From: Bugula neritina
Lineage: Eukaryota > Bryozoa > Gymnolaemata > Cheilostomatida > Bugulidae
Reading direction: 5' to 3'
DNA length: 64,000 bases
NCBI GenBank assembly: GCA_964035545.1
Contig: OZ037765.1
Span: 33,985,004 to 34,049,003 of the forward strand
A program made the position numbers and the translations under genes. Shown here piece after piece: positions 2,603 to 42,629 of this stretch. Numbering within the stretch: the first letter of the stretch is position 1; each line of letters begins with the position of its first letter. The notes under the pieces are model-generated. The model saw nothing but the letters and a program-made list of their open reading frames with translations. It made no database searches and was not told the DNA's origin.

Positions 2603-3782
2603 TAGTGGGGGTGCCAACATGCAAAAATGGGCGGGTGGAGCGCATCAATACTAACCTTTGTTGCTATATATCACTGCAAAGCTAACATTCTACTGATCTC
2701 AGATCTGCGAGTACCTTTTTTGTATCTGGGGGGGTTCTCTCGTGAGAGGGGTGGATATACAGGGGTTCAGCATTTTTCAAGGGGGGACTATGGAACTCTA
2801 AATATTTAATTTTCTGAGTAGTTTAAGTTTGACATTAAAAATATTTTCAAGGAATGTTGTACACATATGAAACTTTCTCTAACAAAAGTTTTGACCAAAA
2901 ATAAAAAAGTGGGCGGAGCCTATAATATGACAAACTACTTTTTTGCATATACCGGATATTCTCTAAACTGCTACTTTTCTGTTCTAGCATTTAGAATGTT
3001 GATTTTTGGTATGAAAACACTCTATTGTGTTCTAATAATGCTCCCCAGTTTTCATTACATTCTGAACTATATAACTTCTTTCCCAACCATAACAAATAAA
3101 AAACATAAAACGGGAGTTATCTCCTCCGTTATAAATTATTGCATTTCTACCCAATAATATTGCTCTTTGCTGATAGGAACAACATCAGCATGATAAAAAT
3201 GTATTCTTAGTGTATTTATATTAGCTTATTGACTTATTTTGAATAACTGATTACAATCAATACTATTAATATTCAATATTTACTGTATAAATTGAGTGTC
3301 AGCAATAATTAACAGACCACTAATATTCCATTTTTTATCCATAAGTATAGTAACATAAAATATGGTTCATAAAAAAGTAATATTATGATTTCAGCATCAC
3401 AAGCAATTACTATGCTCTTTTATATCAGATATTGGTAGACATTTTAATTTTATTTATTTATAAATAAGATGGTATTTAAATTTTAATTTACAATAGATCA
3501 AGCTTTATTACAAAGTTTTGTTATCTCTAGCGTTTATATACCAAATTAAATATATTATAATTCTTCATCAGAACTGTGTTTGTTGCCATCATCATCATAA
3601 TCAGGCTCTTTGTTTGAAAAAGAAGACTGGCCACTTTTGTTGTTGCAATCGAAACATTCACATAAACCACAGCATTTCATCATCAGGCGCTTGCATTTGC
3701 ATGCTTTACTCTTGCAGCTTGCTTTTTTGTATTTACATGCTGTTAAAATCACATCTGCATTGCTCTCAAAATCATATTTTAT
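2603..3782 (+). repeat. Left 1,180-bp terminal inverted repeat
   Basis: Reverse complement of 6582-7761; one substitution (near 2641) was noticed by eye. The inner edge lies in the coding sequence of the element's protein, so the C-terminal Cys-rich segment (minus strand, down to the stop at 3555) is inside the repeat. A 96-residue ORF reading inwards (2867-3157) recurs in the other repeat but resembles no protein I know. Confidence 0.9.
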
Positions 3783-6550
3783 TGGAGTCAAGCTAGTGTC
3801 CCAACCATGGTCAAAAATTGGCTGATGAAGTAAAATAGGTGTTAAAGCAAGTTGCCAAAGTGTAACTTGATAGTTGGCTCGTTTCACGTGATATTCTAAG
3901 GAATTCCTGCTAGGTGGTAGCTGTGCTTCACTGGAGACATTTTTTAAAGCCAATATTTTATATCTTCCTTCAGTGATATCATCATAGGCACCATATAGGT
4001 TGGAGACAAATCGTTCACACTCTAAGTATGTTTCATCTGATAATGGGGACCAATCATCAGAACCTAAAGACAGATTATAGCGTCCCTTTTCAAGTACCTC
4101 CAAAGCACGCTTTTTAGATATTCGGAAGATAGAACTTACTGAATCCCAACCTGTAAGTGCATGGAGTGATAACAGATTCTTGAGAACTTTTTGTGGAATT
4201 TTTTTGGCTAATTCAGAAAGAGATATATATCTTCTGTGACTCCATATTCCAACAAAGATTACTACATCTTTATTAGCCTGCTCAGTTAAAACATTACTAA
4301 AATGATGTTAGGCGCAATAATAGCAACATCGGTATCTACTGATCTTATTACTACCAAATCGTAATCACTCAGTGCATTAGCTGCGTGAAGGATTGGTCTG
4401 CTTCATCATGATTGGATTTCAATTTGTTACAATTGTAACGATAATGGTTTTGCAGAACACAGACTTCTTTGGCACTACACACTAAAAATGTACCAGCTGG
4501 AATTTTCTCAATATGTCTACTCTACACCTTCACTATGTAATCTACCAACTCATTTTTGTTGTGAATATTGCTCAGAAAAGCACTCCAGTTTTTAGGAACA
4601 GGCACGTTGTCATGAATAATGGAAATAGAGCACATCTGTTGGGCACCCCGTCTAATACGCTCTTGTGTTTTAATTGATGTTTCAGAATACACGTCAAACA
4701 CTACATCAACCCTTGTATATCCTTTGCCACATTCAAGAAATACTTCCAACATCTTCAGAGCGTAGTTATAAAAAGTGCCTGATGTTTTTGTCGAGTGAAG
4801 TATGCACATACTGTCAATAATGATCGATTTGTTGGTGGACAGTTGACTATCATCATTGGAGACCCTGTTTCCAAGATATTTCTGTTCCAAAATATGCATT
4901 AGTTGCGATATGCATATTTTTCTCATCTGTCCGTTTTCAGTAAGTAGAGCAAGAGGAATGAGACCAATTTCTTTCTCTAGAACTGTATGCAAATCTACTT
5001 CTCGGCTTTTGGCGCTTATGAGAAGTTTAGCAAATGATATTTTAGGAACATTTGGTTTAATGGCCGGTTGAAGTGGTTTAGCCACAAAGTCAAAGGAAGG
5101 AATTTTAAGCCAGTGAATAGCAGTGTAAAATGGTTTTATTGCATTCAAAAGTCTATCTTGAAAAAACTTTTGAGCCGTGTCTGCTCCCTGAGCCGTAGCG
5201 GTCACTATTGACAAGGAGGTCTCAGCATCGGGACTTACTCCAGTAGCAATATTAATAAGTTCAGTTGAATTATTGCTAAACAACTTAACATCAAACTGAT
5301 GTAATGTAAAAAAAATTGCTTGTATATCAATCTCATCCTTCATAGTTGTAATGATTGTCTTCCTTGTGTAGTGTTGATGACTGTGAGGTTATTTGGCAAA
5401 AATCCTTTTGCAAAGAGAGCAGTTGGGCTCTGATATGACTAGTTAAGAACCATTTTGTCCGAGCTTCTTCGTGGTTGCTAATGCCAATAATACCTCCAGA
5501 TGTTTTACTGTCTCGGTTCAAAGTTTGCTGCAAGACCTGATCTGGAGCCATATCTGCAAATTTTTTTCCTGTCCTTTTTTTTACGGTAAATGAACCCTTT
5601 GCAAACATTCCATAAACTTCCGGAGCAGATTCAGGCAAATTTAGCATATCAATAAGGTATATAGGCAGCCACCTTGAGTAGTTTGTGCCATCATACGCAA
5701 AAAATACTGGTAGCATTGCCTGCATACTGTCCAAATATAATTGCCAGTTGCCACTATGCTCAGCTCGAATAAATCCCAACATGGCTTCTACTGCATGAAG
5801 GTAAGAATTCCAGAACATTGAAAGGTTAGATTTTAATTTAGTATCAGAATCAAACTTTTTTATAGCAGTAGCAACTTTATCTGCGACAGTGGTCCGTTCA
5901 CGTAAGTTATCACCAATAGAAATATTATGATAATCTAATGGGTCAAACTGCTCATTTTCTTGAAGCCATTCCGAAAGAGATTTTAGTTTCTGCCTTGATA
6001 TTGCCTCATACAAAATCTTGTGTGCCCGTACACCTCTGTTATTATGCTTACCACATAGCACCTGTTTCACTGTAACTTCAGAATATATATCCCTGTGCAC
6101 AAAAACTTGGGCGAAGCCGCTTGGTTTTACCATTTTGTCAAGTGCTGCCATGTAATTCATCAAGATATGAAAACCGCCCATTCGAATTATTGCGTTTGAA
6201 AATTCAGTTGGTTTGTTCCATTGAATCTCTTTGGCAATCTTGTAGATAGCTTGGTCAAATGTAATTATTGAATGTTTCTGATTTAAAACTTCCATAGTTT
6301 TCTTTAGCTGCAGAAGAATAGTATAAATTGTTGATGGACCTGTTGATGGTGCATTAATAATTGGGCAATACCCAATGACTGATCTTTTATTATCTTCTGT
6401 GGCAACCAAATTTCTTACATTAAAGCTACTCCAGCTGGGGCAGTTATGTGTAGAAGGATTTATATCCAATTGAAATAGTTTGATTGGGGCAAGTCTTGCC
6501 AATAGCCATGCTGTATTTAGATTACATGAATCCTCAAGTGACTTTTTCAT
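3555..6550 (-). pseudogene. Decayed transposon nuclease-like protein with CXC tail
   Basis: A likely start is the Met at 6550; the longer upstream frame only reads through the TIR. Segment A (6550-5333) has the family signature IRMGGFHILMNYM, then NRGVRAHKILYEA, FIRAEHSGNW, MLPVFFAYDGTNYSRWLPIY and SGGIIGISNHEEARTKW. Segment B (5343-4522) has LINIATGV, IIIDSM and VVFDVYSETSIK. The next 400 bp carry DTDVAII and LTGWDSVSS in other frames. Segment C (to 3555) has SLEYHVKRANYQ, a GW motif and the Cys cluster CKSKACKCKR..CCGLCECFDC. Frames break near 5340, 4510, 4400 and 4300, so no intact protein is made. The order matches one protein of about 1,000 aa in the family. A nuclease role is inferred from the Asp motifs only. 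Confidence 0.7.
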
Positions 6551-6581
6551 ATTCAGTAATGTCTTTTGACTACGTTTTGTG

Positions 6582-7761
6582 ATAAAATATGATTTTGAGA
6601 GCAATGCAGATGTGATTTTAACAGCATGTAAATACAAAAAAGCAAGCTGCAAGAGTAAAGCATGCAAATGCAAGCGCCTGATGATGAAATGCTGTGGTTT
6701 ATGTGAATGTTTCGATTGCAACAACAAAAGTGGCCAGTCTTCTTTTTCAAACAAAGAGCCTGATTATGATGATGATGGCAACAAACACAGTTCTGATGAA
6801 GAATTATAATATATTTAATTTGGTATATAAACGCTAGAGATAACAAAACTTTGTAATAAAGCTTGATCTATTGTAAATTAAAATTTAAATACCATCTTAT
6901 TTATAAATAAATAAAATTAAAATGTCTACCAATATCTGATATAAAAGAGCATAGTAATTGCTTGTGATGCTGAAATCATAATATTACTTTTTTATGAACC
7001 ATATTTTATGTTACTATACTTATGGATAAAAAATGGAATATTAGTGGTCTGTTAATTATTGCTGACACTCAATTTATACAGTAAATATTGAATATTAATA
7101 GTATTGATTGTAATCAGTTATTCAAAATAAGTCAATAAGCTAATATAAATACACTAAGAATACATTTTTATCATGCTGATGTTGTTCCTATCAGCAAAGA
7201 GCAATATTATTGGGTAGAAATGCAATAATTTATAACGGAGGAGATAACTCCCGTTTTATGTTTTTTATTTGTTATGGTTGGGAAAGAAGTTATATAGTTC
7301 AGAATGTAATGAAAACTGGGGAGCATTATTAGAACACAATAGAGTGTTTTCATACCAAAAATCAACATTCTAAATGCTAGAACAGAAAAGTAGCAGTTTA
7401 GAGAATATCCGGTATATGCAAAAAAGTAGTTTGTCATATTATAGGCTCCGCCCACTTTTTTATTTTTGGTCAAAACTTTTGTTAGAGAAAGTTTCATATG
7501 TGTACAACATTCCTTGAAAATATTTTTAATGTCAAACTTAAACTACTCAGAAAATTAAATATTTAGAGTTCCATAGTCCCCCCTTGAAAAATGCTGAACC
7601 CCTGTATATCCACCCCTCTCACGAGAGAACCCCCCCAGATACAAAAAAGGTACTCGCAGATCTGAGATCAGTAGAATGTTAGCTTTGCAGTGATATATAG
7701 CAACAAAGGTTAGTATTGATGTGCTCCACCCGCCCATTTTTGCATGTTGGCACCCCCACTA
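6582..7761 (-). repeat. Right 1,180-bp terminal inverted repeat
   Basis: Mirror of 2603-3782. It carries a second copy of the Cys-rich C-terminus on the plus strand (about 6582-6809), here without the rest of the protein. The sequence outward of 6809 is AT-rich and would contain the promoter for the leftward gene. Confidence 0.9.
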
Positions 7762-14712: not shown

Positions 14713-15302
14713 TCATTCTGAACTTTGCTGTCCATTGAACTTGGGGAAAAAGAAGAGTTTTCGAAAGTGGGTTAAAGTGCATTCTGGGCGGTTAGGTACG
14801 TTACAGCCAACTTCTCTATTCTGTTTCTTTTTGAAGTACGAGATGCTGACTCTTCTCACCCTGTCTTGTATCTGTGAAAAAGTTTAAAAAAGCAATACAT
14901 ATGAAGCTATAAGTGTGCCGATTTTTTTCTCCATCAGGTATTGAATGATCATGAATATAATTAACAAATTAATGAAGCTGCAAACATCTAATAGAAATAT
15001 TCAGGCAAACGGTAGTTAGAGACTAAAACTAATTACTAGGTGTTTTAACTGAACTTGTTCTACTACTAGTTTACTGAATATCATACAGTATAATTCATTC
15101 TTTCTACTAGGTTACTGAATATTATACAGTACACTCAGTGGATGCGTTAAAATAAATTTTACACCTAGATTTAAAAGACCCAACGTACTTACTATTTTGA
15201 ACAGTTCATCTATATCTCTGTGACAGCTGTGTTTGTAGAATGTAGCCACTAGTATTCTGATAAACCATGTACCATACTTACGATGTCTGCCTGTCCTGTA
15301 GT
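14713..15302 (-). CDS. Exons 12-13 of ROCO-caspase: caspase small subunit
   Basis: Exon 15302-15193 encodes YRTGRHRKYGTWFIRILVAT and HRDIDELFKI. This matches the p10 region whose Arg and Trp build the substrate pocket (compare SYRN..GTWYI in caspase-8). Exon 14871-14713 encodes IQDRVRRVSISYFKKKQNRE and PECTLTHFRKLFFFPKFNG, ending at TGA 14715-14713. This is the normal caspase C-terminus. It is separated from exon 11 by an intron filled by a 1.7-kb minisatellite. Confidence 0.85.
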
Positions 15303-18300
15303 CTGCAACAGGAAAGATAAATATAATATTCAAAGTACTATACTCAAAGTACCATACTCAAAGTATCATACTCAAAGTATCATACTCAAAGTATCATACT
15401 CAAAGTATCATACTCAAAGTATCATACTCAAAGTATCATACTCAAAGTATAATACTCAAAGTGTCATACTCAAAGTATAATACTCAAAGTATCATACTCA
15501 AAGTATCATACTCAAAGTACTATACTCAAAGTGTCATACTCAAAGTGTCATACTCAAAGTGTCATACTCAAAGCATCATACTCAAAGTGTCATACTCAAA
15601 GTATCATACTCAAAGTGTCATACTCAAAGTATCATACTCAAAGTGTCATACTCAAAGTATCATACTAAAAGTGTCATACTCAAAGTATCATACTCAAAGT
15701 GTCATACTCAAAGTGTCATACTCAAAGTGTCATATTCAAAGTATCATACTCAAAGTACTCTACTCAAAGTATCATACTCAAAGTATCATACTCAAAGTGT
15801 CATACTCAAAGTGTCATACTCAAAGTATCATACTCAAAGTGTCATACTCAAAGTGTCATACTCAAAGTATCATACTCAAAGTGTCATACTCAAAGTATCA
15901 TACTCAAAGTATCATACTCAAAGTATCATACTCAAAGTATCATACTCAAAGTATCATACTCAAAGTATCATACTCAAAGTACTATACTCAAAGTGTCATA
16001 CTCAAAGTATAAGACTCAAAGTATCATACTCAAAGTATCATACTCAAAGTACTATACTCAAAGTGTCATACTCAAAGTGTCATACTCAAAGTGTCATACT
16101 CAAAGTATCATACTCAAAGTGTCATACTCCAAGTATCATACTCAAAGTGTCATACTCAAAGTGTCATACTCAAAGTGTCATACTCAAAGTATCATACTCA
16201 AAGTGTCATACTCAAAGTATCATACTCAAAGTGTCATACTCAAAGTGTCATACTCAAAGTGTCATACTCAAAGTGTCATACTCAAAGTGTCATATTCAAA
16301 GTATCATACTCAAAGTACTCTACTCAAAGTATCATACTCAAAGTATCATACTCAAAGTGTCATACTCAAAGTGTCATACTCAAAGTATCATACTCAAAGT
16401 GTCATACTCAAAGTATCATACTCAAAGTATCATACTCAAAGTATCATACTCAAAGTATCATACTCAAAGTACTATACTCAAAGTGTCATACTCAAAGTAT
16501 AATACTCAAAGTATCATACTCAAAGTATCATACTCAAAGTACTATACTCAAAGTGTCATACTCAAAGTGTCATACTCAAAGTGTCATACTCAAAGTATCA
16601 TACTCAAAGTGTCATACTCAAAGTGTCATACTCAAAGTGTCATACTCAAAGTGTCATACTCAAAGTATCATACTCAAAGTGTCATACTCAAAGTATCATA
16701 CTCAAAGTGTCATACTCAAAGTGTCATACTCAAAGTGTCATACTCAAAGTGTCATACTAAAGTGTCATACTCAAAGTATCATACTCAAAGTGTCATACTC
16801 AAAGTATCATACTCAAAGTGTCATACTCAAAGTGTCATACTCAAAGTGTCATACTCAAAGTGTCATACTCAAAGTGTCATACTCAAAGTGTCATACTCAA
16901 AGTGTCATACTCAAAGTATCATACTCAAAGTACTCTACTCAAAGTATCATACTCAAAGTATCATACTCAAAGTGTCATACTCAAAGTGTCATACTCAAAG
17001 TATCATACTCAAAGTGTCATACTCAAAGCTGTCTTCCACAGAATAGATTATAATATTTCATACATACTCTCTGTACTTGGCTTCATGATATAGAAGTCAT
17101 CGACATCTAGGTGAGTGAATCTATCAAAGTGAATATTTGGAGACGCATGTTGACCTACAGAAGACTCACTCCCAGCTGTTGCTGAAGATGAGGGTAACGG
17201 GTCAGTAGTTACTGGTGAGACGGTGGCTGAATTTTGTGACTGTACAGCATTCCCAAGATCCACAGCAGCTAAAAACCAAATGAGCAATGTTATGCCAGAT
17301 TTCCCTGTTACACTATTTACAAGGAGTTCCTGGACATATACCGGTCTAGAGAAAGAGCAGACATGTTTTTGTATATTTTCTATTGGCTGCTGCAAAGTGA
17401 TGCAGGTAAGTATAAGTTGATATTCTCATTTAATAGTCATATTGCATGTGGTAATAAGAATCAGTGACTACAAAGCTTTCACCAATAGCATGATATAAAA
17501 CTGTTAATGTCAAGGCTTACTATGGATGGGATATATACATTGTGATAAAACTGTCAAAGCTAAGTCACTCACGGCCTGAACAAGCCTGAAGAATGATGAG
17601 TTTGGGTTTTCCTCTCATGGCAGGGAATTTACTAGCAGAGAGTAAATCTTTGACTTCTGACAAGTTGACAGGTTTAAGGTGTTTGTCATGGAAGATGTTT
17701 CCAGAAGTTCCGTGTGACATGATGACTAGAATGAACATGTCCAGATGCTGGTGGTCTCTGTGGGTGGTCTCTTTCCTCACTTCTGATAATATTTCCTGCA
17801 AAAATTATCTCAGGAATATTTTTATCAATCATTGATTTATGTTGCCTATTTTACACATGTCTTCCTTTGAAATGTGAAAAGAGTTATGATTTTAGGTTGA
17901 CCTATATCAACGAATATAGTTAGTTCATATACAAAAATAATGAAATACTCACTTCTCTGGTCAAATCAAACCACCGCCTCTCTCCTCCGGCAATATCAAA
18001 CCCCATATCTTTGAACAAGGTACTAATATTCTCATAGTCAATACCAGAACCATGTCGGGTCATCCCAGTTATTTCACTGTCATCATCTCGATAGAATCGT
18101 CCGTTGTTTATGATCATGGCGCGCCCTCTAACAGGGTCACTCATTTTGTACACCTGTAATCACAAATAGATTGCCATCTTTTAAGTATTACACACAACTT
18201 TTTTAACAATGTTTAATAGCAATTCTTATGGAAGGATAACTAACTATGAATGACTATGTAAGTAATAAAAATAGGCAACAAAAGTAGAAGTGTCTCACCT

Positions 18301-21300
18301 TTCTCTGCTCATTGAAAAGCTGCGTAATTTCGTTTTTAGTTGTGGGCTTCAGTTTCATACCATTCATGTGAGCAATCAGAGGTTCAAGGTCACTTTGAGT
18401 AAAGTCAGCATATCCTTCCTCTTCCACATCAGAACATTCACTGATGTCATCATCTTCACATGAGGTTGAGACAGGCTGAGCAAAGCGCATCTTTTTTGCT
18501 GGTACTTCTAGTTCTAGAATACAATACTCTCTGATGTCAACATCTTGGAAGTAAAATGGTTCTGTAAATCGTGTAAGTGTTTGAAGTACAAAAAGAATTT
18601 TCGATGATATATTATCTCAGTATTGAGTAATTAAATAATATCCTGTGACAGAATATGCCAACTAAAACCATGTATTATTGAGCTAGCACAGATTTATTGA
18701 GGTGAGCAGAACAGAAATTATGCAACTCTAGAGGAAACACTTTTTAGGATCTACAGCAGTTAAAAATCTACTTGTGTTTATTGTATAGTAATTGATGAGA
18801 AACCTTTAATGAGTGTGATATTGTTATCACAGTTCTCAAGTAAGGTGAAGTTGGTTGGTTTGTTACATTGTATTATGAATTAATATGTGATTTACACAGC
18901 TAAAATATTTATATTTATATTAGAATAAAATATATTATATATATATTACAGTTGATAAATAGGATTACACTGCCTTCTAATTAGTATAATTTACATACCA
19001 GGAACACACGATGATGCAATAAAAATCTCACCAGTTTTCAGATGTTCAGCAAAAAACTTCTTCAAATTTTCAGCTTCTTCCTTAGCCAATGGCTCACCTA
19101 TTGACACCAGATAAAATCAATGTGTATGGGAGATTTAAAGAGGAGTAGATTATTGGAAAAACATTATAATAAACTCAGACAGAAACATAGACTCACATGG
19201 GTAGAGTAGAGCACTTGGGATCTCCTCACCACCACACAGAGTTGTTGAAGATCCACTACACAGTCTGGGACTTGGTGTAGGATGTTTCAAGGAACGAAGA
19301 CACCACAGAGGATTGAGCACTTTCTTAGGACAAGGAAGTCCTAGCAGAAGGCAGTGAGCACAGTAGCATGTAGTGACTAGTCTAGTTGCTTTCCAAGTTT
19401 CTAGGACATGTCTAAGGATGTTGTTGTTGGTGGTGATGAGTCTCTCCCACATTCTGCTGATGTTGGCAGCATTAGATGACACGTAGAGTAACACCTTTCT
19501 AGATTTGTAGTCGTGTACCAGCTGTGTGTAGATCCCATCTTGATAGACATTGGCTCCATTTTTTTTTACTTTCATCACAGCAAACTCATCTGGAAACAGC
19601 TCTAACAAGCCAACCGTCATTTGCTGGTAGACGTAGTGTGGCAGAGCTAGGCCATTGAACTGTGTTTCAACTTGAAGGAGCAGATTTTGTGAGTGAGAGT
19701 AGGAAGTGCTGTAACGACTTTTGGCAAACTGTGGGACAACAAAACATGGCTTTTCAGAGTTGACATGTATAGGACCATACAGCAACCGGAATGTTTGGAG
19801 CAAGCAGATAGCAACTTCAACATTCTCAGAACTGTGAAATATTGTTTCATTTTGAATCAAATAAGCAAGAAGAGAGTGCATCATCAAGCCAGTGTCTGTG
19901 AAATGAGTAACAGGTTCCTCAAAGTCCTGCTTCTCAACAGGCATCCCATTCTTTGAATAGCACGGCTGGAACTTGTCAACTCTACTCTGCCATACGTTAG
20001 GATCATGATGATACAAGACACAGAGAAGTTTGGTAACTTCCGAAATCTTGTGGAATATGTATGGCTGGAGAGAGCTGATTTCTTTATACCACAAAACTTT
20101 GCCGCAGTCATGCATGTATGTGAGGATTATGTCCAGCTGACTTGACTCAATGTGTTGAAGTTCTGTTTGCACGTATTTCAGTATCTCATCAAAGGTACTG
20201 TACACAGAGGGAATAGACAGCACTTTTTCATTCATTTCCTCCCAAACCAAAGGTAAAGGTTTCACAAAATGTTGACTGCTTTGAAGAAGAGACTTCTTGA
20301 TCAGGTCAAACACTTCATACTTATCATCTTTTCCCAACTCATTAATGTCCTCACCAGAAAAGACTCCTTCAGTTGATTTACTGAAATGTTTGATTTGAGC
20401 AAATTCTCCACCCAATGCTTTCTCTTCTCTAATCATCTCCTCACACAGCTGATTTGAAGCGTCTAGAAAATTCTTTCGAAGCTTTTGAAATTCTGTACTT
20501 TGAAACTTATCTTTATGTGTGAAGATAAGTTTTGGAGCACCCAGAGTTGGGTTAGCCAGATACAGGTGAGACATGTAATCAAAGGCTAATCTTCTAACAG
20601 CTTCTCTGTGTGTTGATTCACTTGAAATCTCTCTGTACTGTTCCATGTTGACTACTATGACTGGAATACAGTTCTGTCTCAGTGTCAGTTGGTAGGTGAT
20701 ATGGTAGACCTCCTGGCCTCCCATATCAATGAGACGGAGTACTGTACCATCCACCTCCACCTCTTCAACATTAAACACCTTTGTTGTCTCATCTCTCACA
20801 GCATCTGGCCCTCTGTTGGTCAGAACTCTCTTTCTGTCAGCATTCTGTAATGTTCTGATTAGACTGGTTTTTCCAGCCATCGTATTACCCAGCACAGCTA
20901 TAGTAGCAAATGGTAGACTTCTACCAGCACCTTTAGCCAAATCTGTGTAATATTGTCTCACAGCATCTACTCCTCTCTCACATACCTCTAGTGGAGGAGA
21001 TGTGAGAGCATCACAACCTTCAACATCCAGTGCACGAAGTTGAGTTAGCTGTAGTATCTCAGGATCTAAGGATGTCAGGGACTCATTCTCAGATATATAC
21101 AGTTCTTGCAGACTACTCAGTGTGTACACAGGAGATGGTAAATTGGTGAAGTTATTATCTGATATGTACAGTCTCTCTAACTTCTGTAGACTCCGCATGC
21201 TGTTAAACAACATACATAATAGGAGATATAATAAGGAATATGACACATATAACATACACACTGTAGAAGAGAATGCACACAGGTAATCAATTGATATAAT

Positions 21301-24300
21301 ATTGTAAATGTTTTTCATATTAGACATCAGCTTTTCTTACAAATACTTCAGTGCATTGAAGTACTTCAAGTTAATTGATAGACTGTCATGTCAAGGTGGA
21401 CATTTAAACAGTTTTCTATATTATCTAGAAGATTTTCATCTCATGGAGGAAAGACTATTGAGGACAGCCTAGTTGGAAACCTCAGAAATCTTTACTAGGT
21501 TCCATAAAATTATTTTTGAACAGAGCTTATAGCAGCTAGTATAATTTTATATCAATTTCTGCAGATCTAGACTTCATGCAGTAATTAGCTCACTTTCCTT
21601 GTTGAGGGATAATTCTTAATAGGGTGTACTTGCTAATAGGTCCTTCATATTAATAGATAACAGAAGCTTTAAAGTGATGATGTAACTAAGGGTAGTGTGT
21701 GTGTGACCTTTGCATAAACTGTTCTGGTAAATATCACAAATAATAGAGAGTTGAGTAATTATTTAAAAAGATGGCAAGATATTAACTATCAGTATATCTA
21801 TTCATCTACAGAACTTGATAAAATAAATAGTACATTGTTATCTGGTGAAAGTTATATGACTTTACTGTATCCTCTGTGAACATAATATAATATTCACATC
21901 TTAGCAATCACTGCCTTTTATCTTAACTGTACATACTGTAGATAGTCAATGTATAGCTATGCTAGCCTGCAGCTGGGCACCATATAATACTCAACCACCC
22001 AAATAATAGCAGCACGTGGTACAAGTAGAACAACTCAGCCAATCAACACTCAGCAACAATCTGTAAAGTTGAGTCACCACTCAATTCAAAGTTACAAATT
22101 CTACTGATAGCTGGTCTAAGATCAGATAGCTGTGAGATAATACATTTATATCCTTAGAGTAAACAGGTACTAGTACTGTACACACAGTAAGCTACAAACT
22201 CTGTAGCTGTCAACCAATAGAAATATCATCTCCTTAACCAATCACAATGCAAGTCACTTTCGTAATCAACCACAACTAAGTGTAGGGCCACACTACGAGA
22301 ATACGCTAGTGACCTGCCACACACATTGCAAAAATGTATTAGCCAGTGTTAGCGTTAAATTTACTGCTCGCTACAGGCGTTTGTTTTCAAACCTACGTCA
22401 TCGGCAAAGTGATTTGGATATTATAAAAGCGGGAATGCAAACTATATAAAACTGTTTTAAAAGTTAAATCGTAAATCAAAATAAAAAAGTGAAAATCCCA
22501 AATTCTGGGCTAAACCCGTGGCCCTATTATAATTAAATCTCACTCTGCACTAAATACTAGTTAGCAGTATGAATAGGTGGGAGTACTCTGTGTAGTGTAT
22601 ATTCCCCTCACTTGTTTACCATGATGAGCTATTATACATACTACAGTATTATTCTACACTATAATATAATACACACCTGTTTGGTAGAGTTGACAGTTTA
22701 CAGTTCCACATGTACAACTCTCTCAATGATAGTAAGGATGTGAATATATTGTCAGGTAGACCTTCAGATAGGTTATTCTCTGGTATATTCAATACCTCAA
22801 GATTCTTCAGTGAAGATATGCTGTAACATAACATACAGGGATAAATACATTCTGTGAAGTTATAGAGTACAACTTACACGAGGATTAGTGTGATATGATT
22901 GTGTGCCAGTGTGGCTAGAGGAAAGAGAAGACAACACTATTGACAACAGTGAAGACTATTTATATATTATTACTCTATTTTACTTCAATACTTTATGCCA
23001 GCTAAACATGGGATAATGATAGACTGAGTGAGCACTGATTAAATTAAATGGTCAGTTGGAAGTGATAAGTGAAAGTGTTGAATAAGTTGAAACTTCAACA
23101 GAATATCCCCAACTTGAGTGTTAACTGTAGAAACCTTTGCTATGTATGCAGACAGTTGCTGAGTTACTGATGAGATATTATATTTATTACAATATCATTC
23201 TACACTATAATATAATACACACCTGTTTGGTAGAGTTGACAGTTCACAGTACTCCATGTACAACTCTCTCAATGATAGTAAGGATGTGAATATATTGTCA
23301 AGTAGATCTTCAGATAGGTTATTCCATGATATATTCAATACCTCAAGATTCTTCAGTGAATATATGCTGTAACATAATATTATACAGGTATAGAAACACT
23401 CTGTAGCTCATACATACAAAGTGTGATAACAGAGTTTTAGAATATTATTATGACTCTGTATTTCTACCATCTAACCTCTAGACAACCTTGGGCATAGCAG
23501 TTGTATAATGAGTAACTATGAGGGGATAACTACTATAATGAAGAAGTAGAAAGCTCACTTTATTTATAACCTAGGAACTAGTAAATCATAGACTGAGAAT
23601 AAACGTATTCAGGTAGCAGTGACTGAAAGAGTAATTAGTAAAAGTTTGAATGAGTTTTGTTACAGTTTGGTTTGAGCTGCAGAGTTCCTATGGCAGAGGT
23701 GGGCAACTGGGCCTACCAAGGGCCACTTGTGGACCTTTACCCATTTTTCAGTAGCCCTTTTATTGCTTAAGATAAGTAAAAACTGTCATTTTTTTCTGAT
23801 TAGCAATGCATAGGTTTGGTGACAAATTACTTTATTATAATAAAGTTTATTATGTGTACAAACATGGGGCCCTTCGCTTTTGCTGACCTCTGAACTTGGC
23901 CCTTGAGCAAAAGGAGTTGCCCACCCCTGCCCTATGGCATGACAGTAGTATGAGAGACAGTGTTGGTTAGATTAGAGAAAAGATAACTCTAATAAACAAA
24001 GAAAGTAGTTTACTATATTATATCCTAAATACTAGCAAACTGTAGCCTGGGCACTGAATAAGTTGAAAGGCTTTTAGCTCGTGCTTTATTATAATTTTGA
24101 ATAGTCTAGACTCTAGAGTAATAGCAGACAATGATCTTCAAGCTGAGTGTAGAAATGTAGCGAGTACATTAGAATACAACAACTACTTATTGGTAAAACT
24201 CTGAATAAGTTCAAGTCTCAACAGACCATCTTCACTTGAGTGTTAACTGTAGAAACCTTTGCTATGTATGCAGACAGTTGCTGAGTTACTGATGAGATAT

Positions 24301-27300
24301 TATATATATTACAGTATCATTCTACACTATAATATATTACACACCTGTTTGGTAGAGTTGGCAGTTTACAGTTCTCCATGTCCAACTCTCTCAATGATAG
24401 TAAGGATGTGAATATATTGTCAGGTAGACCTTCAAATAGGTTATTCTGTGACATATTCAATACCTCAAGATTCTCCAGTGAAGATATGCTGTAACATAAC
24501 ATACAGATATAGAAACACTCTGTAGCTCATACATACAAAGTGTGATAACAGAGTTTTAGAATATTATTATGACTCTGTATTTCTACCATCTAACCTCTAG
24601 ACAACCTTGGACATAGCAGTTGTATAATGAGTAACTATGAGGGGATAACTACTATGATGAAGAAGTAGAAAGCTCACTTTATATATAACCTAGGAACTAG
24701 TAAATCATAGACTGAGAATAAACGTAGTCAGGTAGCAGTGACTGAAAGAGTAATTAGTAAAAGTTTGAATGAGTTTTGTTACAGTTTGGTTTGAGCTGCA
24801 GAGTTCCTATGGCAGGAGCGGGCAACTGGGCCTACCAAGGCCCACTTGTGGCCCTTTGCCCATTTTTCAGTGGCCCTTTTAATGCTTAAGATAATTAAAA
24901 ACTGTCATTTTTTTGGATTAGCACAGCATAGGTTTGGTGACAAATTACTTTATTAGCCTATAATAAAGTTTATTATGTGTACAATCATGTGGCCCTTCAC
25001 TTTGGCTGACCTCTGAACTTGGCTCTTGAGCGAAAAGAGTTAGTGTTTTATTATAACTTTGAATAGTCTTGACTCTAGAGTCTAGAGCAATGATAGACCA
25101 TGATCCTCAAATCTATTGTTAACTGTAGAAACCTTTGCTCTGTATGCAGACAGTTGCTGAGTTACTGATGAGATATTATATTTATTACATAGTATGAATA
25201 GTCACTAAATACTAGCTAGCAGTATGAATAGTTACTAAATACTAGCTAGCAGTATGAATAGTTACTAAATACTAGCTAGCAGTATGAATAGTCACTAAAT
25301 ACTAGCTAACAGTATGAATAGTCACTAAATACTAGCTAGCAGTATGAATAGTCACTAAATACTAGCTAGCAGTATGAATAGTCACTAAATACTAGCTAGC
25401 AGTATGAATAGTCACTAAATACTAGCTAGCAGTATGAATAGTCACTAAATACTAGCTAGCAGTATGAATAGTCACTAAATACTAGCTAGCAGTATGAATA
25501 GTCACTAAATACTAGCTAGCAGTATGAATAGTCACTAAATACTAGCTAGCAGTATGAATAGTCACTAAATACTAGCTAGCAGTATGAATAGTCACTAAAT
25601 ACTAGCTAGCAGTATGAATAGTCACTAAATACTAGCTAGCAGTATGAATAGTCACTAAATACTAGCTAGCAGTATGAATAGCCACTAAATACTAGCTAAC
25701 AGTATGAATAGTCACTAAATACTAGCTAGCAGTATGAATAGTCACTAAATACTAGCTAGCAGTATGAATAGTCACTAAATACTAGCTAGCAGTATGAATA
25801 GTTACTAAATACTAGCTAGCAGTATGAATAGACACTAAATACTAGCTAGCAGTATGAATAGTCACTAAATACTAGCTAGCAGTATGAATAGTCACTAAAT
25901 ACTAGCTAGTAGTATGAATAGTCACTAAATACTAGCTAGCAGTATGAATAGTCACTAAATACTAGCTAGTAGTATGAATAGTCACTAAATACTAGTTAGC
26001 AGTATGAATAGTCACTAAATACTAGCTAGTAGTATGAATAGTCACTAAATACTAGCTAGCAGTATGAATAGTCACTAAATACTAGCTAACAGTATGACTA
26101 GTCACTAAATACTAGCTAGCAGTATGAATAGTCACTAAATACTAGCTAGCAGTATGAATAGTCACTAAATACTAGCTAGTAGTATGAATAGTCACTAAAT
26201 ACTAGCTAGCAGTATGAATAGTCACTAAATACTAGCTAGCAGTATGACTAGTCACTAAATACTAGCTAACAGTATGAATAGTCACTAAATACTAGCTAGC
26301 AGTATGAATAGTTACTAAATACTAGCTAGTAGTATGAATAGTCACTAAATACTAGTTAGCAGTATGAATAGTCACTAAATACTAGTTAGCAGTATGAATA
26401 GTCACTAAATACTAGCTAACAGTATGACTAGTCACTAAATACTAGCTAGCAGTATGAATAGTCGCTAAATACTAGCTAGCAGTATGAATAGTCCCTAAAT
26501 GGTCCTGTGATACTCAATAATATGACTACAATGTAATACTACCATAACAATATAGTACCTGGTCCAGTTAGCATTACTGTCTACTCCAGATACATTCAGA
26601 TGTGTGAGATGAGGAAACACTGTGTTGATATTTGGAGGAATGTCATGCTTCAGTATAACATGAGTAACTGTATGATGTCTACTTTTATCATCGATAGTGT
26701 ACAGTGTAGTAGCTTTCGACACCCAATCATGATCAGCTCCATCTATACTGGATGTGTTGAACCACACCTCATACTCCTCTACAAAATATGCACCACTTTA
26801 TAAATAATAACTTTGATATCAAATAACAGAGTGTCTCAACACTATAAACAGTATTTAATTAAATGTGGAGAGTTCACAACTCCAAACAACATATTAACTT
26901 CAGTTGTTATATCAAAGGAGCAGACTGATAATATAGTATATATGACTCAGTATAGTCTTCAAACACCTTCTAATATTCTCTATAATATATAATAGTGACT
27001 GGAAGTCACTTGTATCTCTAGACTCAGCACCAGCAAAGTATGTACAGAACACCTTGATTCTAGTATCTGTAATACTAGTGATACACTCTTCTATAGAAGT
27101 AGTGAAAGTTATATCAAGAACAACAAGAAATATGTACTAGTAACTTGATGCATACAGCATCATCTGATTGGCTAAAAACACCAACCAATGGGGAGTGACT
27201 AGACATATACTCACATCATACAAGTGGTTGGACATGAGACAATACAAAGTATCTGTGTTACACAAAATGTGATATTGGTCACAGAATATCTATTTATATA

Positions 27301-28066
27301 ATTTACTAATTTCTCTCAGAGTCACCTGGAGACTGAGTTAGCCTAGGGCCACACGGTGCGTATTTTCGCATGCGAAAATTGAAATCACAAGTAGCAAAGG
27401 TATCCACTGTGCGCGTTGAGAAAACCTTCGCACTTGTCGCTCTGCATTTTCAACGCAAGTGCGAATCGTCTCTGTCGTCGTCATCTAATTGGCTGGTAGC
27501 TATTCAGCGAGCCCAATTTCTTTATTTAGTGCTATATTCCAGTAAATTGCGTTTTATTGAAAGCGAGTGCGATTTAAAAATGAAAGCTTTATTTATCACG
27601 CATCACTGACGCTACAGTGGACACCTTTGCTACTTGTGATTTTAATTTTCGCATGCGAAAATACGCACAATGTGGCCCTAGGCTTAGAGGTGGAGTCACA
27701 AATTGAGGTAGAGGCGGAGTTACAGGCTGACATATATTAAGATTATTATATCCTGTGGGAAGTGCTTTTAAGATTTGTATTTAATATTTGCTTACTTTCC
27801 ACAGTTGGAGTTGAAGATGAAGTTGAGGACGAAGACACAGCCTGAGCTGGAGGCGGAGTCACATACTGAGTTAGAGGCGGAGTCAGAAAATGAGTTGAAG
27901 GCAGAGTCATATGCTGAGTGACAGACTGAGCTAGAGGCGGAGTCACAGACTGAGCTGGAGGCGGAGTCACAGACTGAGCTGGAGGCGGAGTCACAGCCTG
28001 AGCTGGAGGCGGAGTCACAGCCTGAATTGGAGGCGGAGTCACAGACTGAGCCTCTGAATCACTCAT
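14713..28066 (-). CDS. LRR-ROC-COR-caspase fusion protein (13 exons, about 1,393 aa)
   Basis: Exons read on the minus strand: 28066-27796, 26778-26559, 24488-24345, 23366-23223, 22820-22677, 21199-19197, 19097-18999, 18561-18299, 18153-17953, 17795-17573, 17268-17068, 15302-15193, 14871-14713. Every junction has AG/GT ends and matching phase, and the lengths sum to 4,182 nt (1,394 codons with the stop). Domains: Pro-rich repeat (1-90), LRRs (about 100-375), ROC GTPase (about 405-560), COR (about 600-975), acidic linker (about 980-1096), caspase (about 1097-1393). Known biology: ROCO proteins are LRR-linked GTPase switches and caspases are Cys proteases of cell death and inflammation. Inference: nucleotide- or ligand-driven assembly could activate the fused caspase directly. 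I know of no characterised protein with this architecture. Transcript data would settle whether it is one mRNA. Confidence 0.8.
15335..17030. repeat. 14-bp minisatellite (CTCAAAGTATCATA) in caspase intron 11
   Basis: About 120 tandem copies of a 14-bp unit in two main versions, CTCAAAGTATCATA and CTCAAAGTGTCATA, with rare CTC/CTA variants. The unit has no stop in any frame when read across three copies (42 bp), so long spurious ORFs appear in all plus frames. Larger blocks recur (for example near 15715-15790 and 16265-16345), so the array grew by block duplication. Confidence 0.95.
17068..18153 (-). CDS. Exons 9-11 of ROCO-caspase: caspase large subunit and inter-subunit linker
   Basis: Exon 18153-17953 has the p20 start YKMSDPVRGRAMIINN and MTRHGSG, which supplies the conserved Arg. 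Exon 17795-17573 has ILVIMSHGTSG (catalytic His, about aa 1191) and LQACSG (catalytic Cys, about aa 1235; QACSG is a variant of QACRG). Exon 17268-17068 is a Ser/Thr-rich linker ending HLDVDDFYIMKPSTE, where VDD is a candidate processing site before the small subunit. The catalytic set is complete, so an active protease is expected. Confidence 0.88.
18299..19097 (-). CDS. Exons 7-8 of ROCO-caspase: linker between COR and caspase
   Basis: Exon 19097-18999 (EPLAKEEAENLKKFFAEHL...) has 1-nt phase at its 5' junction and supplies the G of a split Glu codon to exon 18561-18299 (PFYFQDVDIREYCILELEVP...). These split codons are what physically tie the ROCO half to the caspase half. The linker has an acidic run (CEDDDISECSDVEEEGYADF) rich in Asp, a plausible place for caspase self-cleavage. 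That is inference. No CARD, DED or death domain is recognisable. Confidence 0.7.
19197..21199 (-). CDS. Exon 6 of ROCO-caspase: last LRRs, ROC GTPase and COR
   Basis: A 2,003-bp exon. It begins with two more LRRs (KLERLYISDNNFTNLPSPVY, LQELYISENE). The ROC domain has a P-loop GNTMAGKTS (about aa 412-420), switch DMGGQE (about 466-471) in place of the usual DFAGQE, and a THKD base-recognition motif (about 535-538). COR features follow: LTYMHDCGKVLWYKE and later TGLMMHSLLAYLI. A CxxC-containing segment (TTCYCAHCLLLGLPCPKK) near the end may bind zinc, as in MFHAS1-like ROCO proteins. The upstream open frame to 21327 is intron read-through. The GTP-binding residues look intact. Confidence 0.85.
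22283..22525. mobile_element. Possible MITE with GGGCCACAC ends
   Basis: TAGGGCCACAC at about 22283-22293 and GTGGCCCTA at about 22518-22526 face each other across a 240-bp non-coding stretch in an intron of the ROCO-caspase gene. The ends resemble those of the 27341-27683 element. The inverted repeat is short, so this is tentative. Confidence 0.3.
22677..24488 (-). CDS. Exons 3-5 of ROCO-caspase: three homologous 144-bp LRR exons
   Basis: Exons 24488-24345, 23366-23223 and 22820-22677 are each exactly 144 bp, phase 2 at both ends, and near-identical. Each encodes 48 residues, two leucine-rich repeats of the form ISSLxNLEVLNxxxNNL.EGLPDNIFTSLLSLRELxxxxCKL.TLPNR. Because the phase is the same at both ends, exons can be gained, lost or skipped without breaking the frame. 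Flanking intron DNA is duplicated as well. Confidence 0.85.
23694..23929. mobile_element. hAT-type MITE in LRR intron
   Basis: Termini CAGAGGTGGGCAACT and AGTTGCCCACCCCTG are inverted copies. Flanks TCCTATGG (23686-23693) and CCCTATGG (23930-23937) form an 8-bp target-site duplication with one mismatch, the hAT size. Non-coding, 236 bp. Confidence 0.8.
24813..25042. mobile_element. Truncated second copy of the hAT MITE
   Basis: Same element in the equivalent duplicated intron, with the left end CAGGAGCGGGCAACT preserved and the right terminus lost after GAGCGAAAAGAGTT. Flanking intron sequence also matches, so it arose by segment duplication and not by a new insertion. Confidence 0.7.
25185..26497. 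repeat. 30-bp minisatellite in ROCO-caspase intron 2
   Basis: About 44 very regular 30-bp units containing CACTAAATACTAGCTAGC followed by AGTATGAATAGT. Variation is limited to a few positions (C/T at GTCACT, AGC/AAC/AGT). It fills most of the intron between exon 2 and the first LRR exon. Confidence 0.95.
26559..26778 (-). CDS. Exon 2 of ROCO-caspase: pre-LRR segment
   Basis: Encodes EYEVWFNTSSIDGADHDW... and ends with an LRR-like strand (VFPHLTHLNVSGVDSNANW). Acceptor TTGTAG at 26779-26784 and donor CCAG|GTACTA. Phase 1 in and phase 2 out agree with the exons on both sides. Confidence 0.7.
27341..27683. mobile_element. MITE with TTA target duplication and about 67-bp TIRs
   Basis: Ends GCCTAGGGCCACAC and GTGGCCCTAGGC extend into inverted repeats of about 67 bp that include TATTTTCGCATGCGAAAAT. 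TTA flanks both sides (27338-27340 and 27684-27686). A 3-bp TTA duplication suits PIF/Harbinger-type elements, but the family is not proven. It lies in intron 1 of the ROCO-caspase gene. Confidence 0.75.
27796..28066 (-). CDS. Exon 1 of ROCO-caspase: Thr-Pro-Pro-Pro repeat N-terminus
   Basis: Starts MSDSEAQSVTPPP at 28066. Then come degenerate 8-residue units of type TPPPAQSV, encoded by a 24-bp in-frame minisatellite, then a Ser/Thr tail. The donor GAAA|GTAAGC leaves phase 1, which fits the next exon. No signal peptide, so a cytosolic product is expected. Being repeat-encoded, this segment is likely disordered and length-variable. Confidence 0.75.
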
Positions 28067-32375: not shown

Positions 32376-33152
32376 TCCTAATTTAGCATTACATAGAGGC
32401 TAAATTCTTGCAGTGAATCTGTTAAAACAGATTCTGGAAAATTGTGTGATTGAAGTATATATATTGCTACATTTCTAGTTTGTAGCAATTAACTCACTGC
32501 TGCTAGTTTAGCCTACAGTCGGGGACTGTGGATGATTTAAGTTTAACACAATAGTCTGGGACTATTAGTGTTCAATAGGTATAGTCACGGACTATATTTA
32601 GGGGCCCGAGGTATTGGTAGCAACAACGTGGTTTGCCGCTTGTGGGGACGCCTACAAGTGTTCACCAACAACCTATAGTATAAGCAGCTGTGTCTGGGAC
32701 ACATATTTGGTAATACACTGGGTGTATTTATGTTTATAGCTCTAGGCTGTAGTTCATTTGCCATTAGACTGCTTTGAAAACTTGCACGGGGTGCAAAGGT
32801 ATTGGGTTGCTGATTAGAAGCAACGCCATTGACTATTTGAAAGTCATAAACACTGCATAGTCAGTATTTAAATAATTGCTTGCTTGAGTTTGGGCTGAGA
32901 TAATTGAAGAGTCAATTACTTTATTTTGAGGGTGAATATTTAAAAGGGAATTAAAAGTAATAAAAATTAGACTAAAAATTAACAGTAAAATAAGAAATAT
33001 TTGGTAGCAATTTAAATAATAATAAAACCAGAATAACTATAAAACAGGCTATTAGTCACACAGTAATTGCATAATAAAATTAATTGAAAAAGTAAAATTT
33101 AAAACAAAATAGAATTTAGGTGCCAAATTAATTTTCAACAACCAAAGTTAAA

Positions 33153-34463
33153 ATGGCCAGCAACACAACAACTAAAACAACATCAACTGACGCGATTACC
33201 ACACCTACTCGGTCAACGACATATGAAGATGCAGATGGTGATAAAGTAAAGGAAGTTATGGACTTCTGGGACTCACTCCCTGAACGATACAAAGTAATGG
33301 TTTTGGAAAAGAAAGCCAGAACAACTGGAACTAGGCAGAAAGTGGTTAGCCACACTACTACCACCACTCATACCTTACCAATTACAACAACACCACAAGT
33401 AAGCCATACCATACAGCCAGCCACATTATTTCCCCCGCCTCCAGTTACTTCGAGAACACCGCCAGGTCTTGCCATGCCAACTGAGCCTCAACTTGACATA
33501 AGCCACCATTACCGCCCATACACAACCCCATCTCATTACGTACCGACCTTCATCATGCCGGAGTTTTCAAATTATGAAACCTTTTCAGGCGCACCTAATG
33601 AAAGTTGGGAAAACTTCATCGACCGATTTGAAATACATATCTTAACCTACCAATTTAACGATCAGCAAAAGGCATTAAATCTACCAAGGACATTTCGTGA
33701 ACCAGCTTTCACGAAATATAAAGACCTTATCCGCGAAAAACCCAATTGCACAACAAATTACATCCTACTGAAAGAAGAATTGCGAAAAATATTTACTGTT
33801 CACTCTAGACTGCAAGCCCGAAACCTGAATAACATTGTGCAAGGGAAAAGAACCGTAGGTGATTATTATGTAGAATTAGCGGCAGCATGCCAATCAGCAT
33901 ATGCCGATGTCCCTGAAATTCATAGGAACAAATTCCTCCTCGATAAATTTACCCAAGGACTAAGAGACCCTATCCGCCGAGTAGTAGACTCAAAAAGTAA
34001 TTTGTCACTAAAACAAGCTATAATCGAAGCAGAGAAAGCAGAGCTCTCTGAATTTCCGACCAACCCTCCCAAACTAGTCGCTCAAGTACAGGAGAGAGAC
34101 GACATAGAGCCTCTCAGAAGACAAATTGAAAATCTGAGAGAAATGATACAAAGGCAAACTCATCCTAACAGAGAACAACCCCTACAAACAAGATATGACA
34201 ACAGGCCAGAACAAAATTTCACAGCATACAGGAACGCACCAGGTCACAGAAATTTTGCTCCAAACACAGATAATCAAAAACCAAAACATTTTAATTTCAC
34301 CTGCTACAAGTGCAATGAAAGAGGACACCGTGCTCGAGAGTGTCGCTCAAAACCCATTCATGTCATACAAACTGAAAATATGAATGATGAGGACTACGCA
34401 GAGTATATGTCAAGCAGGCCACCTGAAGATGCAGAGGCTACAATAAATGTTGTTATTATCTAA
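33153..34463 (+). CDS. Retrotransposon Gag, 436 aa, with CCHC zinc knuckle
   Basis: Uninterrupted ORF from ATG 33153 to TAA. The N-terminus is Thr-rich (MASNTTTKTTSTDAITTPTR). The capsid-like core starts at about residue 130 (FSNYETFSGAPNESWENFID) and continues through LKEELRKIFT and FLLDKFTQGLRDPIRR, typical of Ty3/gypsy-type Gag. One zinc knuckle CX2CX4HX4C (CYKCNERGHRARECRS) sits near residues 387-402. It would form the particle and package RNA. The ORF stops with no overlapping pol. Confidence 0.88.
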   Translation: MASNTTTKTTSTDAITTPTRSTTYEDADGDKVKEVMDFWDSLPERYKVMVLEKKARTTGTRQKVVSHTTTTTHTLPITTTPQVSHTIQPATLFPPPPVTSRTPPGLAMPTEPQLDISHHYRPYTTPSHYVPTFIMPEFSNYETFSGAPNESWENFIDRFEIHILTYQFNDQQKALNLPRTFREPAFTKYKDLIREKPNCTTNYILLKEELRKIFTVHSRLQARNLNNIVQGKRTVGDYYVELAAACQSAYADVPEIHRNKFLLDKFTQGLRDPIRRVVDSKSNLSLKQAIIEAEKAELSEFPTNPPKLVAQVQERDDIEPLRRQIENLREMIQRQTHPNREQPLQTRYDNRPEQNFTAYRNAPGHRNFAPNTDNQKPKHFNFTCYKCNERGHRARECRSKPIHVIQTENMNDEDYAEYMSSRPPEDAEATINVVII

Positions 34464-41794: not shown

Positions 41795-42629
41795 ATGCTA
41801 CCCAATAACTTCATGGAGAGCGACGAGGAGTACGAGTTCGGGGACTCAATAAGACCCAGGAAAAGGCAAAGACTAACTCATTTGACTCCTGGTGAAAAGC
41901 TCCAACGAAGGTATAACTATAATTTGACTTATTGAATGTGTTTATTGTCAAGTTGTAACATAGTTTATGAAATAACATTTTAGGAAAGCGAGTTTTTCAA
42001 AAATTTTACTTGATAGTGGAACATGAATTCGAATATTTTAGGAAGATGAAAAACAGAGTAGCGGCACAAGCTGCCAGGGACCGAAAGAAAGCACACATGG
42101 ATGAGCTGGAAGACCTGGTGAAGCATCTTCAGTATGAAAATCAAAGACTCGCAAGAGAAAACTTGTTGCTGAAAGATGCTCAAGTTTGTCCAAACTGCAC
42201 AACTAACAGAGCAGCTGTGAAAGAGACACAGCAGTCATCAATCTCCACCTTGGTGAAGTCTGAACCCACTTCTAAGTCAGCAGAACTTAGTCCTCAGCAG
42301 AAGGAACGGGTGCAGACCTTGCTGGTATTGATGATGGCCTGCTATGCAACAACTCTAACCTTTCACATGACTTACAGGTAAGTTTGACACATTTTTTGGT
42401 CCATTTTCTGACCACTTGAATAAGCGTAGAGCACTCTACTCTCATGGTGTACAACTTTCACATACAATATTTCAGCAAATATACTCCCTCATCATACAAG
42501 ACAGTGAGCACAGCACAGCCCTTAGACCTGACGATGTCTTCACAGGCAAGGCTGAGGAGCTCTCAGAATACGTTCCTACCGTGGTGGGGTCCATGCCAGA
42601 ACTCCTGGAATCCCACAAAGACAGTGTAA
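41795..42629 (+). CDS. XBP1: XBP1, unspliced form (XBP1u), about 201 aa
   Basis: Without the IRE1 cut, exon 2 reads ERVQTLLVLMMACYATTLTF, a hydrophobic stretch like the membrane-targeting HR2 of vertebrate XBP1u. Exon 3 is then read in another frame to TGTAA at about 42627-42629. The last residues, FLPWWGPCQNSWNPTKTV, share the F-L-x-x-W-G-x-x-Q-x-S-W-x-P pattern of the vertebrate XBP1u translational arrest peptide. In vertebrates this pauses the ribosome so the mRNA is carried to the ER membrane where IRE1 acts. Function here is inferred by similarity. Confidence 0.85.

Follow-up and report, generated by a model that had tools for sequence, protein, structure and literature searches.

Gene model and domains at the locus

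We analyzed a 64,000-nucleotide stretch of the genome of the bryozoan Bugula neritina (assembly GCA_964035545.1, contig OZ037765.1, positions 33,985,004 to 34,049,003 of the forward strand; hereafter the window), which lies on the contig termed C1 here. Its minus strand carries, from position 28066 to 14713, a gene whose predicted protein joins leucine-rich repeats (LRRs), a Roc GTPase domain, a COR domain, and a caspase, an in-frame fusion that, judged from sequence, is very likely real (Table 1). An earlier note on this DNA had proposed the fusion, with 13 exons of matching splice sites and phases and with codons split at 19197/19097 and 18999/18561. Rebuilding the 13 exons from the DNA reproduced this model: the exons add up to 4182 nt, an exact multiple of three (1393 codons plus the stop; a predicted protein of 1393 amino acids), all introns are GT-AG with mutually consistent phases, and both split codons are present. 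Exons 3 to 5 are 144-nt phase 2-2 LRR copies of each other, with 77 to 83% protein identity to exon 3; a search of the window for additional LRR exons found none beyond exons 3 to 6. Such a layout permits exon shuffling, as has been proposed for the LRRs of brown algal ROCO proteins (PMC11378527). In intron 11, a 14-base repeat (TATGACACTTTGAG, with variants) forms a long array (15319-17033), which is open in several plus-strand frames and yields spurious open reading frames (ORFs). A 30-base unit (TATTTAGTGACTATTCATACTGCTAGCTAG) is repeated in tandem over a long part of intron 2 (~25200-26500).

Table 1. Exons of the predicted ROCO-caspase gene, in order of transcription, with window coordinates
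Feature	Position	Strand	Evidence
Exon 1: ATG and low-complexity TPPP/Q repeats	27796..28066	-	open frame with GT donor; relatives give no confirmation
Exon 2: N-terminal conserved block (EYEVWFNTSS...)	26559..26778	-	58 genome matches; Watersipora P0081 has LEVWYRHSGQ
Exon 3: LRR exon, 48 amino acids, phase 2-2	24345..24488	-	exon model, Pfam, LRR exon search
Exon 4: LRR exon	23223..23366	-	77% amino acid identity to exon 3
Exon 5: LRR exon	22677..22820	-	83% amino acid identity to exon 3
Exon 6: last LRRs, Roc GTPase, COR-A/COR-B	19197..21199	-	Pfam; AlphaFold predicted local distance difference test (pLDDT) 90; LRRK2 / C. tepidum Roco match
Exon 7: linker, helix-like (CEPLAKEEAENLKKF...)	18999..19097	-	junction and phase common to 19/21 loci; in-frame conservation
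Exon 8: ECSD-containing acidic linker; segment ahead of the caspase	18299..18561	-	linker search, 19 matches; [DE]xSD
Exon 9: start of caspase p20, Arg1129	17953..18153	-	exon model, caspase alignment
Exon 10: His1191, Gln1233, Cys1235 (SHG, QACSG)	17573..17795	-	133 genome matches to such exons
Exon 11: p20-p10 linker	17068..17268	-	exon model, comparison with L029
Exon 12: p10 with Arg1310 (GRHRKYGTWF)	15193..15302	-	exon model, caspase alignment
Exon 13: C-terminal strand of the caspase, stop codon	14713..14871	-	exon model; L029 has the same exon

The predicted protein contains the features by which the ROCO family is recognized, a Roc GTPase domain with G1, G3, and G4 motifs and a COR domain directly after it. 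Pfam matched the LRRs and Roc (29.2 bits; cut-off, 27) in the locus protein, and at E ≤ 0.01 it matched Roc in 17/17 aligned members and COR-A in 14/17; the COR-A match of the window copy lies below the cut-off. The COR assignment draws on Pfam matches in relatives and on an AlphaFold model of the exon 6 part, to which the LRRK2 Roc-COR structure aligned over residues 1-600 and the C. tepidum COR structure (3dpt) aligned as well. The earlier note had named P-loop, switch, and THKD motifs, and the Roc K, D, and D residues are conserved in all 21 paralog loci compared (described below). We found no Pfam match to a kinase in the locus protein and none to NACHT or NB-ARC at E ≤ 0.1. NLR receptors use NACHT or NB-ARC as an ATPase switch, whereas the switch at this locus is the Roc GTPase.

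Caspases are proteases of cell death. The caspase part of the predicted protein is matched by Peptidase_C14 at 103.9 bits over profile positions 1-223 of 233 and thus comprises both p20 and p10. Its best sequence match in the PDB is caspase-3 (E, 1.6e-22), and the p10 stretch by itself matches caspase-3 weakly (7.6 bits). The window copy holds all five catalytic and P1-pocket residues: the dyad of His1191 and Cys1235, in SHG and QACSG, and the P1-Asp pocket of Arg1129, Gln1233, and Arg1310. For Arg1129, His1191, Gln1233, Cys1235, and Arg1310, we take the caspase-3 counterparts to be R64, H121, Q161, C163, and R207, respectively; the Arg, His, Cys, and p10 pocket residues that had been read from the sequence before were thereby placed by alignment. 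Among the 21 paralog loci, the His is present in 20, the Cys in 19, the pocket Arg in 21, and the p10 Arg in 11. The S1 Gln position is more variable (Gln in 8 loci, Glu in 9, other residues in 4). The loci with Glu (L019, L020, L021, and L023-L028) lie on chromosomes 1, 3, 5, and 6 and mostly read LE-x-CSG, and the remaining loci without Gln have Val, Leu, or His at this place in QACxG; based on these substitutions, the P1 pocket, and hence cleavage specificity, may differ among the Gln-substituted loci.

No CARD or DED was matched by Pfam in the locus protein at E ≤ 0.1. An exon-wise search of the whole genome, which can miss domains interrupted by introns, returned just 3 DED and 4 CARD matches, a scarcity that fits a lineage leaning less on adaptor relays. 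One CARD match, at C2:9943461-9945862 (minus strand), lies ~2 kb upstream of a strong same-strand Roc match and could mark a CARD-ROCO gene.

Junction, relatives, and genome-wide repertoire

We aligned the window protein from residue 331 onward to the 21 paralog loci using a splice-aware script, which recovered the window model from DNA. The COR exon ends at window amino acid 975 in phase 1 in 19/21 loci; the script placed the L014 end a codon further on, with a phase-1 GTGAGT present as well, and L016 differs. Because the script requires GT-AG, the evidence lies in the common place and phase of this end and not in the GT. Reading through the exon 6 donor leads to a stop after 1-23 codons, at differing places (20 loci counted). 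A conserved, helix-like stretch opens the next exon, with L-S-x-x-E near the start and then a hydrophobic pattern. In the receiving frame, exon 7 has a mean BLOSUM62 score of 1.23 per site and no stop in any of 20 sequences, versus scores of -0.13 and -0.84 and stops in 18/20 and 20/20 sequences in the other frames; this test leaves out L014 and L016, and the script's choice of frame favors its result, yet the contrast in stop counts is large. In distant loci, the script forced weak exons into the spliced models, between exon 7 and exon 8 as well as close to the p20-p10 linker, and the models contain stops there; our statements on the linker draw only on the opening 20 codons of exon 7 and on the segment preceding the caspase. 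One alignment leaves out L011, L013, L018, L026, and L028 of the 21 loci, and L001-L008 were unused.

In L029, the paralog closest to the window copy, the splice sites of exons 6 to 11 are conserved, and these exons differ in length at a single place, a three-base indel in exon 7. Pairwise distances in Roc-COR and p20 are correlated across 24 sequences (r, 0.746; 0/2000 permutations as high), as expected if both travel together. A [DE]xSD motif occurs in the linker of 23/25 sequences (a count given without a chance-level estimate), where it could serve for self-cleavage or, just as well, as an acidic site for a kinase.

Bryozoan gene models in a public protein database join the same parts. The B. 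neritina protein EB796_002463 (P0019; 907 amino acids) matched Roc and Peptidase_C14 above cut-off and COR-A and COR-B below it; its COR-to-linker junction is the one found here, and its first caspase exon is skipped. This gene set was predicted by AUGUSTUS with the transcriptome as hints (PMC7576161). In another cheilostome, Watersipora subatra, P0081 (1337 amino acids) and P0083 (1219 amino acids), under the names uncharacterized protein and MFHAS1 homolog, each contain, in one predicted chain, LRRs, a Roc-COR-like part, and a linker, together with a full caspase scoring 107.9 and 126.8 bits, respectively. Their identity to the window protein is 206/573 and 200/567 residues in Roc-COR and 70/135 and 60/130 in p20, respectively. 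A single-sequence protein search gave nothing at E ≤ 0.001; profile searches retrieved the relatives, and one protein alignment used 62 of 87 proteins. P0034, P0046, P0051, and others, from ENA, JGI, and LGN collections, are divergent single-exon Roc-COR proteins (27-43% identity) whose ends, where read, also carry P-C like the B. neritina exon; they possibly come from other bryozoans in metagenomes.

The genome (215.85 Mb, 295 contigs) was searched for further copies. Scoring all 137 candidates for the catalytic caspase exon left 133 matches, and for the Roc-COR exon there are at least 73 (the best 73 of 123 candidates scored), 71 of them stop-free and 72 spanning the whole query, with one beginning at residue 76. 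All but one of these 73 are followed on the same strand, within 15 kb, by a caspase exon that no other of them shares, and 68 have it within 5 kb. Merging 39 Roc, 23 COR-A, and 73 Roc-COR exon matches gave 95 ROCO loci, 92 of which have their own same-strand caspase exon within 15 kb (median distance, 2.0 kb), again all different, while the opposite strand has none. Positions drawn at random from these clusters have a caspase exon within 10 kb in 3.7% of cases. Roc matches were kept if they were ROCO-like and in long open frames (39/150; the 111 left out were mostly Rab-like or on contaminant contigs), and one caspase survey used the best 150 of 176 matches. The locus numbers come from ranked searches and are lower bounds (at least 92). 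Conserved junctions with a coding linker, one-to-one pairing, and independent gene models in two bryozoan species together support the in-frame fusion. The Roc-COR exon at C1:33884509-33886308 (minus strand) stands in an open frame of 2363 amino acids, far exceeding other copies. Contigs C58, C90, C99, C144, C186, C282, and others have small GTPase matches with several in-frame TAA/TAG codons and no TGA, probably reflecting ciliate contamination in which those codons are read as Gln. A search for the GH6 family, a tunicate hallmark, gave no match, but it gave no signal in any sequence, and its negative carries no proof.

Roc-COR and p20 are under purifying selection. The ratio of nonsynonymous to synonymous substitution rates (dN/dS) is 0.16-0.32 for Roc-COR in ten pairs of five close copies and 0.36-1.58 for the adjoining LRR stretch, the latter a sample of 73 codons, aligned from the exon end and without a formal test. 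In the caspase, it is 0.08-0.47 for exon 9 (26 pairs), 0.07-0.45 for catalytic exon 10 (nine pairs), and 0-0.40 for the short p10 exon 12 (17 pairs).

Elsewhere in the window, identical 111-amino-acid ORFs on opposite strands (2822-3157 and 7207-7542) flank minus-strand ORFs of 250-476 amino acids, and the whole (2822-7542) resembles a transposable element bounded by long inverted ends. A 443-amino-acid ORF at 33132-34463 (plus strand) resembles, by eye, a retroelement gag with a zinc knuckle. We take the gene at 41971-43021 (plus strand) to be an XBP1-like bZIP gene, and the exons at ~45668-53642 (minus strand) presumably belong to a CRTC-like transcriptional coactivator.

Proposed role and alternatives

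We consider it probable that the locus encodes a single LRR-Roc-COR-caspase protein and that it is one of at least 92 loci for intracellular receptors with a built-in executioner. Based on the domain order, a sensor, switch, and executioner on one chain is the most likely mechanism. The LRRs, which evolve more rapidly than the Roc-COR core and are encoded in phase-matched exons, would bind a trigger, and binding would shift the nucleotide state of Roc and hence Roc-COR pairing, as suggested by LRRK2 and the C. tepidum Roco protein. Roc-COR modules pair mostly via COR, and pairing is nucleotide dependent (PMC6337361). Paired Roc-COR modules would draw two C-terminal caspase domains together, leading to activation. 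Initiator caspases are activated when two are brought together. Cleavage at the [DE]xSD linker and between p20 and p10 could then release active protease.

Several observations weigh against this reading. The splice-aware script requires GT-AG and favors window-like frames, which helps the junction and linker results, and in L010-L013, L017, and L018 the read-through stop lies inside the donor, one codon on, so that those six loci alone would also fit a gene end. The joins in EB796_002463 and Watersipora are predicted gene models; Roc in P0081 and P0083 falls below the curated cut-off with COR-A unmatched, and four further Watersipora proteins (P0073, P0075, P0078, and P0084) gave no caspase match, possibly through truncation, poor modeling, or real absence. 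Genome-wide, 3/95 ROCO loci have no caspase within 15 kb and for 41/133 caspase exon matches no ROCO is listed upstream; the N-terminal exon 2 lies within 40 kb upstream of five of these 41, and some may thus be more divergent family members. There are damaged or inactive-looking copies as well: L016 lacks both His and Cys, L025 has Ser for Cys, and L011 and L026 carry a stop inside the Roc-COR exon. Since the S1 position is Gln in just 8/21 loci, Asp specificity is perhaps not general. Exon 12 has dN/dS above 1 in 2/19 pairs. The changes that separate exon 8 of L029 from that of the window copy number 6 nonsynonymous and 0 synonymous, and dN/dS in exon 11 of this pair is ~0.8, so the linkers are free to vary. 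The small LRR sample belongs here too, and the immune nature of the trigger is argued by analogy.

Could the locus instead hold two neighboring, co-duplicated genes, a ROCO gene ending just after the COR exon and a caspase gene starting in the linker? The read-through stop at ~19150 in the window, the stops within one codon in six paralog loci, and an AATAAA in the intron after exon 7 point that way, and joint duplication would likewise produce same-strand pairs. However, across 20 loci the read-through stops are scattered over 1-23 codons while the exon end is fixed in 19/21, the linker exon shows conservation in the frame that receives it, and the two halves are joined in independent gene models from two species. 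Caspase-3 has a YKM that aligns with the YKM ahead of the caspase here, so this Met need not be a start. Taken together, we regard two separate genes as very improbable.

Other alternatives accept the fusion and concern its role. Many copies could be decoys or regulators with an inactive or altered caspase that tune a few active members, as cFLIP does for caspase-8; the loss of both catalytic residues in L016 and of the Cys in L025 and the substitution of the S1 Gln in 13/21 loci would suit such a role, but the His and Cys are conserved in 20/21 and 19/21 loci, the catalytic exon is under purifying selection in nine pairs, and the window copy retains all five residues, leaving this an unlikely account. 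We would give about as little credence to active fusions with a developmental role, such as zooid degeneration and renewal, in place of defense or self-recognition. Bryozoan zooids regress and renew as part of the normal biology of colonies, and no pathogen need be invoked, but ~100 copies with LRRs outpacing the core resemble recognition more than housekeeping. Beyond the preferred reading of receptors with a built-in executioner, we put forward tentatively, as a possibility we would not bet on, that the cell-death receptors of cheilostomes are built as single chains: ~100 LRR-ROCO-caspases, forming a polymorphic repertoire, would replace CARD/DED relays, and single cells would judge microbes or non-kin tissue and kill themselves without a partner protein. 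For a colonial animal, these loci offer concrete candidate genes for non-self or kin recognition via cell death.

Comparison with known systems

In the caspase-8 and caspase-9 systems and the NLR inflammasomes, repeats recognize a trigger, nucleoside triphosphate (NTP)-controlled pairing follows, and proximity activates a caspase, with CARD or DED contacts to a separate receptor being required. Unlike these systems, the B. neritina receptor and caspase lie in one predicted chain. LRRK1 and the Parkinson's protein LRRK2 have a kinase (and WD40) after COR where the B. neritina protein has a caspase. With a caspase wired to an LRRK2-like Roc-COR module, protease activity would report Roc-COR pairing, which is debated for LRRK2. 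MFHAS1, whose name some Watersipora models bear, is a group 1 ROCO protein with the same simple LRR-Roc-COR layout; proteins of this group have only LRRs before Roc-COR and lack an effector enzyme (PMC6337361). DAPK1 shares the ROCO module and a tie to cell death but not the caspase, and it has a kinase before Roc-COR, a death domain, and no LRRs (PMC6337361).

The LRR-ROCO repertoires of brown algae are likewise large families with LRRs on separate exons and are proposed immune receptors (PMC11378527); the word caspase is absent from that paper's main text as available. The same source counts as many as forty ROCO domain combinations in animals, so an animal ROCO-caspase may be among them. 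A sponge paper (PMC12909245) names CASc and COR in one figure legend, which does not state, in the part available, that they share a protein, and we set it aside as a precedent; the word caspase does not appear in the available text of the genome paper on Flustra foliacea (PMC13326412). Among the titles and abstract openings listed in the literature searches, none mentioned a ROCO-caspase from a bryozoan or any other animal; bioRxiv and most subscription journals lie outside the literature searched. As far as those listings go, a large animal ROCO-caspase repertoire appears to be new, and the database models seen bear neutral names.

The closest likeness is to bacterial LRR-AP-GTPase-COR proteins, in which any of at least 24 domains, a caspase being one of them, can occupy the C-terminal position (PMC8195603). 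Since a bacterial LRR-GTPase-COR-caspase has been described there, the domain order is not new to biology; the statement in the earlier note that no characterized ROCO protein ends in a caspase therefore stands for animals in the literature searched but not for the order itself, which is known from bacterial sequences. Both groups share the order of LRR, Roc-type GTPase, COR, and C-terminal effector and have multiple paralogs per genome. The bacterial proteins are prokaryotic and predicted from sequence, and their effector varies between paralogs; the B. neritina family differs from them in having a two-part animal caspase, a conserved linker exon, introns, and the same effector at at least 92 loci, a comparison in which the bacterial caspase forms enter by their description only. 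With 92 of the 133 caspase catalytic exon matches sitting at receptor-like GTPase loci and few CARD/DED matches, the animal arrangement would be the same solution that is predicted in bacterial defense.

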